A DNA stretch of 64,000 nucleotides from Bacteroidota bacterium. Its GTDB lineage: Bacteria > Bacteroidota > Bacteroidia > Chitinophagales > Chitinophagaceae. Shown one piece after another: positions 45,979 through 48,340 of this stretch. The DNA is taken from contig CANGDH010000002.1 of assembly GCA_947452555.1 (NCBI GenBank), positions 248,001-312,000 of the forward strand, read 5' to 3'. Made by a program: the position numbers and the translations under genes. The notes beneath the pieces were generated by a model, which was given only the letters and a program-made list of their open reading frames with translations, was not told the DNA's origin and did not search any database. Each line of letters starts with the position of its first letter. Position 1 is the stretch's first letter.

Positions 45979-46962
45979 ATGAATAGAGCCATAATAAATA
46001 GTATTACTTTTTCTAGGCTATTGCTTTTGCCACTACTATATATTATTCCCAACCCACTTTTCTTATTTATAGGAGCAGCCTGGTGCGGGGTATCCGATTT
46101 CTTAGATGGTTATTTAGCAAAACGATTAAAATGTAGTAGTCCCTTTGGTGTACAACTTGACCAAATTGCAGATAAACTTGTGGCATTGTATTTTTTTATT
46201 GATTTATTTTTAAGAGGACAAATTTCGATTTGGTTTATTTTATTATTTTTTCTTCGAGAAGGGCTTATTTTAGTGGGGAGGAGAACTGGTTTTAATTTAG
46301 TAGGTTCTAATATTTGGGGTAAAATAAAAACAGTATTAGTTTATGTTTTTATTGCAATATTATATTGCAATAACTATTTACAAATTATTTCTTTAGAAAA
46401 GGGAATAATTTTGAGTATTATATTTCAGGCAGTCATTTTAATAATTAGTTATTTTTCATATTATATTTCAATAGTATCCGAAATTCAAACAAAGCTGAAT
46501 CTGGAAATTTCAAAAACAATTGGCTCTAGTTTTTATACAGCATATATATTTAAGAAGATGCCGGGAACTTCCAGTTCCTTATTTGTATTTCCCTTATTCT
46601 ATTATTTTCAAGACATTGATTTTGAAATTAAAATAGTGATATTGGGCTTATTAATAATTTTACATTATTTAATTTATCCACTATTTAGTAGTGAATTAAA
46701 AAAGGAGGATCCAGGTGAATATACATTAGACGAAACTATTGCAATAGCGTTTTGTTGGTTTATACCATTTGAGTCTATTCAAATATGGATTCTATGTTTT
46801 ATTCTATTTCGTTTTTTTGATATTATAAAACCCTTTGGTATCAAAGGTTTTGAGAAATCACCTACATTTGGAAAAGCTACTCGAGTATTAGGGGACGACC
46901 TTATTGCTATATTATATACCTTAATAACTATACATGCTGTTGAATTTTTTGTCGAAATATAA
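45979..46962 (+). CDS. PgsA-PgpA fusion: phosphatidylglycerophosphate synthase plus phosphatase
   Basis: A 327-residue membrane protein that joins two consecutive enzymes of phosphatidylglycerol synthesis. The N-terminal half (about 1-165) is a CDP-alcohol phosphatidyltransferase with the signature DGYLAK-x9-G-x3-D-x3-D (Asp40, Asp43, Gly57, Asp61, Asp65); the canonical Ala-Arg is Ala-Lys48. The C-terminal half (about 170-327) matches PgpA phosphatase: MPGTSSS near 194, LDETIAIAF (Asp251, Glu252), FRFFDIIKPFGIKGFEK (Asp281) and LGDDLIA (Asp306, Asp307). CDP-diacylglycerol plus glycerol-3-phosphate would thus yield PG on one polypeptide. The next gene overlaps its end by 29 bases. Base composition is visibly more AT-rich than most of the window. 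Confidence 0.85.
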   Translation: MNRAIINSITFSRLLLLPLLYIIPNPLFLFIGAAWCGVSDFLDGYLAKRLKCSSPFGVQLDQIADKLVALYFFIDLFLRGQISIWFILLFFLREGLILVGRRTGFNLVGSNIWGKIKTVLVYVFIAILYCNNYLQIISLEKGIILSIIFQAVILIISYFSYYISIVSEIQTKLNLEISKTIGSSFYTAYIFKKMPGTSSSLFVFPLFYYFQDIDFEIKIVILGLLIILHYLIYPLFSSELKKEDPGEYTLDETIAIAFCWFIPFESIQIWILCFILFRFFDIIKPFGIKGFEKSPTFGKATRVLGDDLIAILYTLITIHAVEFFVEI

Positions 46963-48340
46963 AATCGATATTTTATTAATTATTCCAATAATAGCTATTA
47001 ATTCTTTTGGGTTATTGGGAGTGTATTTTTTTTTGCCAAGATCAATTTTTTATTATGAATATCTATTAGTATTATTAAGTATAGCTTTTTTCAAAAATTA
47101 TCGCATTTCTTTTTTACTTTTTATTTTAATATTTATATTCGATTTATTTAACATAATCTCAAAATTATTTTTATTTAAAATAGACGATTTCATCCAAAGC
47201 ATTTCATTTGTTAAACTTTATAATTTTTCATTAAATCAAATTTTCATCTTTATATTTTTTGTAACGTATTTAATAATTATTAAACTTATTGTTAAAAAAA
47301 CAAAGTCTACCATAGATCAAAATAAAAAAAAATACATAATATTTATCTTTATATTATATTTTCTAATCTTTTTATTAGACGCCTTGAACGGATCTGGTCG
47401 TCTATTCACTCAAAGAGAACATGATATAAATGAAACACACATTAAAAAAAACATAATAAGCCCACTATATAAAGAGTATAAAGTAGCTTATCAAGATATG
47501 GCTAACGATACAATAAGCACTCTTAAAGATACATCGGTTAGCTTTAAAAGTTTCTTAAAGGATTCAAGTGGAAATCAATTGGTGATTCTTGTAGAATCTT
47601 GGGGAATTATTAAAGACACTTTACTTCAAGGAGAGTTAGTAAAAATCATTTCAAATTCATTTTATAAAAAAGGGTTTAATGTAAGTAGCGGTAATTCTAA
47701 ATATTATGGATCTACCACTGCTGCTGGTCTGAGAGAGCTATTAAATGCAAGTGGTTCATATTCTTATTTCATTAACAAATCGTCTAATAAAACAAAGTAT
47801 ATTTCAATTTTAGATGTTAAAACTAATCAAGGCTATGATACATATATGTTCCATCCGTATACAGGAGAAATGTTTTCCCGTTCTAAATGGTGGAAAAACT
47901 TAGGCGCAAAAAACTTATTTTTTCGAGAAAATTACTTGATTGATAATAATTTTAAAGCCGAGGAAGTGGATGAGGATGCAAGATTTCCTTCTATTAAAGA
48001 TGATACTTTTTTTGATTATCTATTACAGAAAACCCAAAAAAGCAAGAAAAAATTTGTGTATTATTTGACAGTAAATTCACATTTACCGTATACTAAAATC
48101 GTTAGCGAACACAATCCTTCATCAGGTTTTAATATTGAAAAAATGCCTATTACTAATGAAGCTAAATTTCATCTCATACATATCAAAAACTTAATTGAGT
48201 ATTTTTCACAAAAAATCGAAGCCAATGAATGGAATAAAATATTAATAATTGGAGACCATACTCCACCATTTTCAACCTTAACTGATCGTAATTTTTATGT
48301 TGACGGTAAAGTTCCTTATTTGCTTATTACTAAAAAGTAA
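46934..48340 (+). CDS. LtaS/MdoB-like membrane sulfatase-fold transferase (phosphoglycerol transferase-like)
   Basis: About five membrane segments (residues 10-150) precede an extracytoplasmic alkaline-phosphatase/sulfatase-fold domain. Visible site residues are Glu221 in VILVESWG, a Thr pair at 261-262 in YYGSTTAAGLREL as candidate nucleophile, His383 in TVNSHLPYT, and Asp441-His442 in IIGDHTPPF. This pattern fits lipoteichoic-acid synthase, OpgB/MdoB and phosphoethanolamine transferases. LtaS-type enzymes take phosphoglycerol from PG. The gene overlaps the PgsA-PgpA fusion by 29 bases in another frame, so the two are translationally coupled. The acceptor is unknown. Its stop is one base from the convergent fabG stop. 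Confidence 0.78.
   Translation: MLLNFLSKYKIDILLIIPIIAINSFGLLGVYFFLPRSIFYYEYLLVLLSIAFFKNYRISFLLFILIFIFDLFNIISKLFLFKIDDFIQSISFVKLYNFSLNQIFIFIFFVTYLIIIKLIVKKTKSTIDQNKKKYIIFIFILYFLIFLLDALNGSGRLFTQREHDINETHIKKNIISPLYKEYKVAYQDMANDTISTLKDTSVSFKSFLKDSSGNQLVILVESWGIIKDTLLQGELVKIISNSFYKKGFNVSSGNSKYYGSTTAAGLRELLNASGSYSYFINKSSNKTKYISILDVKTNQGYDTYMFHPYTGEMFSRSKWWKNLGAKNLFFRENYLIDNNFKAEEVDEDARFPSIKDDTFFDYLLQKTQKSKKKFVYYLTVNSHLPYTKIVSEHNPSSGFNIEKMPITNEAKFHLIHIKNLIEYFSQKIEANEWNKILIIGDHTPPFSTLTDRNFYVDGKVPYLLITKK

Follow-up and report, generated by a model that had tools for sequence, protein, structure and literature searches.

A predicted PgsA–PgpA fusion linked to an LtaS/LtaP/GacH-like transferase in a Bacteroidota genus: a candidate module making phosphatidylglycerol as a head-group donor

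Why would a Bacteroidota cell encode two consecutive reactions of phosphatidylglycerol (PG) synthesis in one chain and overlap that gene with one for a transferase resembling LtaS? To our knowledge, LtaS-type transferases use PG from a pool that the cell produces in any case. In the window, the whole 64,000-nucleotide stretch of DNA analyzed here, an earlier note had described such a pair of genes (Table 1) and read it as making PG and transferring its head group to a surface polymer or lipid. The facts on LtaS, LtaP, GacH, and Bacteroides lipids used below for comparison are drawn from passages of PMC4192460, PMC9246714, PMC12282279, PMC8791184, and PMC11629553; in these passages, the glycerophospholipids named for Bacteroides are phosphatidylethanolamine (PE) and phosphatidylinositol (PI), not PG.

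Table 1. Position of the two genes, their domains, and their overlap in the window.
Feature	Position	Strand	Remark
PgsA–PgpA fusion gene, 327 aa	45979..46962	+	predicted PGP synthase plus PGP phosphatase
PgsA-like CDP-alcohol phosphatidyltransferase domain, residues 7–144	45997..46410	+	PF01066 1.5e-21
PgpA-like phosphatase domain, residues 181–321	46519..46941	+	PF04608 5.9e-25
Gene overlap, 29 bases, another frame	46934..46962	+	fusion ORF end vs transferase ORF start
LtaS/LtaP/GacH-like membrane phosphoglycerol transferase, 468 aa	46934..48340	+	PF00884; N-terminal membrane helices then catalytic domain
Transferase catalytic domain, residues 208–468 (E221, T261, H383, D441–H442)	47555..48337	+	
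Donor-pocket motif H307-x6-F314-x-R316-x2-W319-W320	47852..47893	+	

As shown in Table 1, the Pfam domains CDP-OH_P_transf and PgpA are both significant on a single chain, as the earlier note had proposed, and the match of the C-terminal half to PF04608 reaches 88.3 bits at a gathering score of 28. The separate PgsA and PgpA enzymes catalyze the two consecutive reactions predicted for the fusion and carry the same motifs, whereas those of the window are fused and stay under the curated cut-offs: the top curated family for the PgsA half is pgsA (TIGR00560) at 68.7 bits, under its cut-off of 109.1, and the PgpA half gives 48.6 bits with the curated E. coli-type PgpA model (NF008288), far under the cut-off of 226. 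The residues singled out before (D40, D43, G57, D61, D65, D251–E252, R278, D281, K284, and D306–D307) proved to be invariant throughout an alignment of 33 fused proteins that contains the window's own; the CDP-alcohol phosphotransferase motif D-x2-D-G-x2-A...G-x3-D-x3-D is complete, with D40, D43, G44, A47, G57, D61, and D65 invariant in all 33 rows. The AlphaFold model of the fusion has a mean pLDDT of 87.2 and a pTM of 0.60; the nearest solved structure to the PgsA half is PgsA 7drj/7drk (1.9e-5 by sequence), which was also the top Foldseek match of the whole fusion at an E of 0.005, with no match at E ≤0.001. The fusion is predicted to be a PGP synthase plus a PGP phosphatase, and the 29-base overlap, present in another frame as described, suggests translational coupling of the two genes.

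Both Pfam domains lie in one chain in 38 of the 86 proteins listed from a large collection, the window's own among them, and the identical fused layout, partner included, was seen between adk and fabG in two further members of the host genus, G412 and G417, again with the 29-base overlap; since fused proteins recur and these genomes share gene, overlap, and place, the fusion is not an assembly accident of one genome. Besides the window's pair, four fused proteins and transferases were put in the same genomes (P0002/P0090, P0005/P0088, P0006/P0093, and P0020/P0110; one is G417), being matched across two homologue lists by inferred common genome. When 100 related genomes were searched with the fusion, a full-length match in one open frame was found only in G028 besides the window's genome, and in G091 (L008) the match spans the fusion from end to end and is split by a stop into two separate genes. 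More distant fused proteins are P0037–P0039 and P0042. Of 459 relatives, 80 loci were kept, and these include L037 (Omnitrophota), another fusion in a single ORF, as well as 12 pgsA–pgpA pairs lying side by side; no relative of the transferase was found in the stretches fetched. Adjacent genes without a transferase in the fetched stretch occur outside the genus, e.g., in L066, and likewise in G091. Viral contigs gave 34 pattern matches, none of them a relative, and a blastn search of plasmids in distant mode gave one match at 2% coverage, which is not relevant. In the literature searched (titles and abstract openings), neither a described PgsA–PgpA fusion nor a glycerol-phosphate transferase module in Bacteroidota was found.

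The PgpA tree relied on here has 85 rows, with the rows of 43 named loci omitted (mostly Pelagibacter, other proteobacterial rows, and duplicates). One clade (100/98) holds 12 fused proteins, for 5 of which transferase linkage was seen, together with 3 unfused linked genes; inositol-type PgpA form a separate clade of 25 proteins (99/95) apart from the fused PgpA, labelled by size and PF04608 score, with the inositol gene cluster itself inspected only in G017 (L117). Other PgsA–PgpA fusions and adjacent pairs have the same domain pairing, but those in the tree fall outside the PgpA clade of the module, and the fusions P0037, P0038/P0039, P0042, and L037 probably arose separately. Five changes on the tree, at least three of them forced by well-supported branches, suggest several origins of the fusion. 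Adjacent pgsA–pgpA pairs are a possible source of a fusion.

The second protein matches Pfam Sulfatase (PF00884) at 4.7e-11 over residues 255–386, and its model has a mean pLDDT of 84.9 and a pTM of 0.76. None of the curated NCBIfam families claims it, and on its own it had no meaningful match among PDB sequences; a profile of 38 transferase sequences gave one sequence match in the PDB, LtaP (3.6e-8). In Foldseek, ranks 1–16 are taken up by chains from LtaP, LtaS, GacH, and 3lxq, a Vibrio protein, and EptA follows at rank 17; VIA-align gave the same top entries, with the phosphoglycerol transferases at 19.5–17.2 and, after a gap, EptC at 14.0 and EptA at 13.9, a ranking that covers approximately residues 208–468, hardly includes the membrane part, and is no test of the donor. 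The LtaS-like character proposed before is supported, with LtaS/LtaP/GacH above ordinary sulfatases and EptA/EptC. In the passages used of PMC4192460, Listeria LtaS holds the phosphate by His353, Trp360, Arg362, and His422, binds the metal by Glu263, Asp481, and His482, and has Thr307 as the nucleophile. The counterparts in the window are H307, F314, R316, and H383 for the phosphate, E221, D441, and H442 for the metal, and T261 for the nucleophile, and the His/aromatic/Arg spacing of 0/+7/+9 is the same as in Listeria LtaS, with Phe314 in place of Trp360; the signs of the LtaS/LtaP/GacH group, namely, a Thr nucleophile, a Glu/Asp/His metal site, and a phosphate-binding His/aromatic/Arg with a second His, are all present. 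The residues that the earlier note had named (E221, T261, H383, and D441–H442) are invariant across 38 aligned relatives, the window's included. The second glycerol-phosphate site of Listeria LtaS is described as Ser486, Asn488, and His489 (+5, +7, and +8 from the metal Asp) and as missing in LtaP, which has the same catalytic residues as the window transferase; in the latter, these positions are F446, T448, and L449, assigned by spacing without structural superposition. Since this polymerization site is not kept at the LtaS spacing, the transferase probably adds single groups, not chains. A GT2–transferase fusion (P0113) was considered as a functional hint and dropped, as its join looks by eye like an assembly chimera.

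Across genomes, pgsA, with or without pgpA, adjoins the transferase gene (once two genes away) in nine genomes, three genera, and four layouts, and the pairing is not chance, since the linkage recurs in this way. The overlap between fusion and transferase measures 11 bases in G028; G017 has a PgsA that lacks PgpA and shares 4 bases with the transferase gene, and G400 has pgsA alone in front of it. A second genus of the family (G350 and G249) has unfused pgsA and pgpA leading into the transferase gene within a single run, and in a third (G237) one gene lies between the pgsA and pgpA genes and a transferase gene of convergent orientation. The pairing is conserved in other genomes, and a fused gene is just one of the arrangements in which pgsA, pgpA, and the transferase are associated. 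In addition, PgsA and transferase distances are parallel over 12 pairs, 3 of them matched by inferred common genome (rho 0.93, 0 of 5000 permutations as high), and a thinned set of 7 pairs gives a rho of 0.87 (3 of 5040). Searches with the transferase profile gave at least 5 of 294 genomes of the family and at least 11 of 396 of the order, both being lower bounds because four or five candidates were scored per genome. Weak matches to this profile were also seen in G195, G588, G595, G614, and G638.

Between related species, the pair is more diverged than the flanking genes compared (fusion 72–76%, transferase 57%; flanks 83–99%, with 12 in G412 and 10 in G417). The GC of the two genes is 0.279 and 0.255 against 0.322–0.383 in 12 neighbors, while their third-position GC of 0.192 and 0.209 lies within the neighbors' range of 0.183–0.319; horizontal transfer was dropped as a reading of base composition for this reason, and the low GC probably reflects membrane-protein composition.

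The host genus was sampled by 71 genomes, at least 90% complete, with the window's own (89.65%) counted in, and all transferase candidates were scored. PgsA of the module type was recognized in five of them, G000 (the window's), G412, G417, G017, and G400, and each of the five has an adjoining transferase with the His...aromatic-x-Arg motif; the other 66 have no recognized module-type pgsA, 34 of them having a single PF01066 match of PssA size and 4 having none. In bits of the N-domain profile, PgsA-like copies score 89–241 (97.9 for the unlinked copy of G091) and PssA-like ones 35–44; this scoring applies to PF01066 matches with fetched loci, and the rest were judged by open-frame length (≥243 aa) and profile span, with six odd ones read individually. 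A further small CDP-alcohol transferase in G396 (35.6 bits), which lacks a transferase partner, was left uncounted. Meanwhile, 57 motif rows (56 different) were examined, where 42 have H...(F/Y)-x-R (class 1) and 15 do not (class 2), and a single well-supported branch (99/97) of the transferase tree separates the two classes. The donor-pocket His, aromatic residue, and Arg are present in all nine pgsA-linked loci, and the motif is missing in class 2. In the genus, class 1 is found in the five pgsA genomes and in G408, which has a motif-bearing transferase and no pgsA found, is 95% complete, and has the gene near a contig end; class 2 without class 1 is found in ten genomes (G011, G025, G037, G048, G049, G058, G390, G393, G395, and G421), and no module-type pgsA was found in these ten. 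A transferase match was present in 19 genus genomes, of which G046, G051, and G405 had weak ones that disappeared when the search was restricted to frames of at least 150 aa and belong to neither class. A Fisher test of motif class against pgsA in 20 genomes (10 per class; G028, G237, G249, and G350 come from outside the 71) gives 1.2e-4, a value that overstates independence because most of the association traces to a single split of the transferase tree; the proper reading is one event that was then kept up, rather than 20 independent cases.

In the window's genome, which measures 2.28 Mb at 89.65% completeness, PF01066 is matched by two proteins, the fusion and a PssA-like protein on contig 5, and there are one PgpA and one PF00884 protein; statements of an only copy are provisional at this completeness. 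Neither an inositol-1-phosphate synthase nor a PLD-type cardiolipin synthase was found in it; the listed PLD-type match is a polyphosphate kinase, and both PLDc_2 matches, of which one is listed, probably lie in this protein, since it has two such stretches. Among the PG users looked for (Lgt, PLD-type cardiolipin synthase, and PF01066 and PF00884 proteins), Lgt and the transferase remain.

The domains, the predicted fold, the catalytic residues, the conserved linkage, and the co-distribution of motif and pgsA established here are, with fair probability, those of an accessory module that makes PG mainly as a head-group donor to decorate a surface glycan, by single transfers rather than polymerization. 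In the enzyme activities that we infer, the PgsA half would join CDP-diacylglycerol and sn-glycerol-3-phosphate, and the PgpA half would at once remove the terminal phosphate, giving PG at the cytoplasmic face of the inner membrane; PG would then pass across the membrane, and the LtaP/GacH-type transferase would attack it from the periplasmic side by Thr261, with Glu221, Asp441, and His442 as the metal site and the PG phosphate held by His307, Arg316, His383, and the aromatic Phe314. Diacylglycerol would be released, and the group accepting the glycerol phosphate would most likely be a hydroxyl on a surface polysaccharide or on its lipid-linked precursor. The pgsA linkage is the evidence that points to PG as the donor. 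In silico, the support for enzyme class and donor is good, and both are likely correct; for this part, as for its interpretation in general, the earlier note finds support in silico, and none of the three outcomes that it had listed as refuting it occurred, while the surface polymer or lipid that it names is a putative acceptor.

A surface glycan as the acceptor has about an even chance of being correct. The best functional analogue is GacH of the streptococcal group A carbohydrate, which is described as moving glycerol phosphate from PG to a surface polysaccharide; GacH serves a Gram-positive wall polysaccharide, whereas here PG synthesis is encoded with the transferase, and in Bacteroidota. 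In the window's species, G412, and G417, the pair has no polysaccharide genes beside it, and the argument comes from more distant relatives: the G028 pair has a Bac_transf sugar transferase and an epimerase as neighbors, and Wzi proteins follow farther along; to one side of the G017 pair, a Poly_export protein is encoded a few genes away, and to the other lies a cluster that, by reading of the sequences, is of sugar-nucleotide, Wzz-like, and NeuB-like type; and for class 2, the relatives in G025, G049, and G058 are surrounded by glycosyltransferase, export, and Wzz-like genes, the Wzz matches being just under the Pfam cut-off. The same bare surroundings of the three close pairs (G000, G412, and G417) would suit a lipid acceptor, such as a glycolipid or ceramide, and so would the closest sequence relative with a structure, LtaP, a primase whose acceptor is a glycolipid anchor; we consider a lipid in place of a polysaccharide unlikely though worth keeping in mind, given the polysaccharide genes around the relatives in G028, G017, and some of class 2. 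We know of no linkage of Listeria LtaP to pgsA or pgpA. A true poly(glycerol phosphate) polymerase building a lipoteichoic-acid-like chain would share fold and catalytic site with LtaS, but the replacement of Ser486, Asn488, and His489, which LtaP also does without, leaves this reading very little weight.

The donor and the purpose of the fusion can also be read otherwise. On one reading, the fusion supplies PG to the membrane in general and to Lgt, and the transferase is merely co-transcribed. The presence of Lgt, which classically uses PG, in the window's genome and in 67 of the 71 genus genomes speaks for it; this reading is improbable, since the lack of a recognized module-type pgsA in 66 of the 71 genomes argues against PG being a housekeeping need in the genus, and the transferase adjoins pgsA in all five genomes that have it. 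The earlier note had itself offered a phosphoethanolamine transferase; were PE used, the neighboring enzyme would be irrelevant to the donor. PE is presumably abundant in the cell, the protein belongs to the same superfamily as EptA/MCR and BcsG, and class 2 sister proteins live in genomes without module-type pgsA; however, the LtaS-type phosphate-binding residues are kept at exact spacing, phosphoglycerol transferases rank first with a gap, and His and Arg are missing in the class whose genomes have no module-type pgsA, so that this alternative is disfavored and has only a small probability. Synthesis of PI, by a PIP synthase and PIP phosphatase, is hardly credible: the Bacteroides PgpA-family protein BT1525, in a MIPS/PIPS cluster, acts most probably as a PIP phosphatase according to the passages used of PMC9246714, but the genus members of that type form a separate clade, the fused PgpA is outside the 25-row inositol-type clade in a genome of 89.65% completeness where no MIPS was detected, and the PIP synthase model gives the fusion 14.5 bits against 68.7 for pgsA, while the G017 PIP synthase scores 377.7 on its own model; PGP rather than PIP would be the substrate.

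With PG made mainly as a donor remaining the preferred reading, the module is a variation on known enzymes, not a new kind, and the genus setting is its unexpected part. The gene pair is rare, and most sampled genus genomes have no recognizable PG-making enzyme. A tentative extension, which we hold to be possible rather than probable, is that PG is no housekeeping phospholipid in the lineage: most species would make none by a known route, a few would have a co-inherited module making PG mainly as a donor, the donor class of the transferase family would have shifted between a PG-type and a non-PG pocket in step with the module, and Lgt in most of the genus would work on a donor other than PG. 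Given Lgt in 67 of 71 genus genomes and recognized module-type pgsA in 5 of 71, the question arises which lipid serves Lgt where no PgsA is recognized. The co-distribution of motif and pgsA offers a sequence rule by which donor use may be predicted in the transferase family, and with a donor lipid and a consumer that seem to form a single unit, the pair lends itself to testing whether a lipid can be made chiefly for group transfer.

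Between the window and the corresponding loci of related species (L184 and L185), the pair shares 57–76% identity, while the flanking genes share 83–99%, and this excess divergence suggests replacement or fast evolution of the pair. PgsA-PgpA fusions are also found outside the module's clade, at the Omnitrophota locus L037 and in the database proteins P0037, P0038, P0039, and P0042, which suggests that neighbouring pgsA and pgpA genes have been fused repeatedly. In the database protein P0113 the transferase appears joined to a GT2 domain; judged by eye, the join is probably an assembly chimera.

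Within the genus, pgsA adjoins the transferase gene in G017 and G400, at loci L115 and L187, without the module PgpA; the sole PF04608 match in each genome is of the inositol type, and this PgpA might serve both lipids. In G408, the transferase carries the His/Arg motif and pgsA was not found, the only PF01066 match there being of PssA size; this absence may be an assembly gap, because the transferase gene lies close to a contig end. In the genus survey, Lgt (PF01790) is present in 67 of 71 genomes and PgsA of recognised type in 5, a disparity that bears on the lipid donor for lipoprotein maturation.

Sequence comparison separates a sister class of the transferase, class 2, which lacks the His/Arg phosphate-binding motif. 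Most carrier genomes are without pgsA of the module type, and the copies of G025, G049, and G058 are set amid polysaccharide genes; perhaps PE is the donor of class 2 transferases.

Coordinates of the pair, related genes, and class 2 loci
Feature	Locus	Coordinates
PgsA-PgpA fusion and transferase pair	window	45979–48340
pgsA adjoining transferase gene	L115	10028–10579
pgsA adjoining transferase gene	L187	8998–9519
G408 transferase	L202	8926–10389
Class 2 transferase	L116	3180–4538
Class 2 transferases	L199, L203, L204, L205, L206, L207, L208, L209, L210, L237, L238, L242, L243
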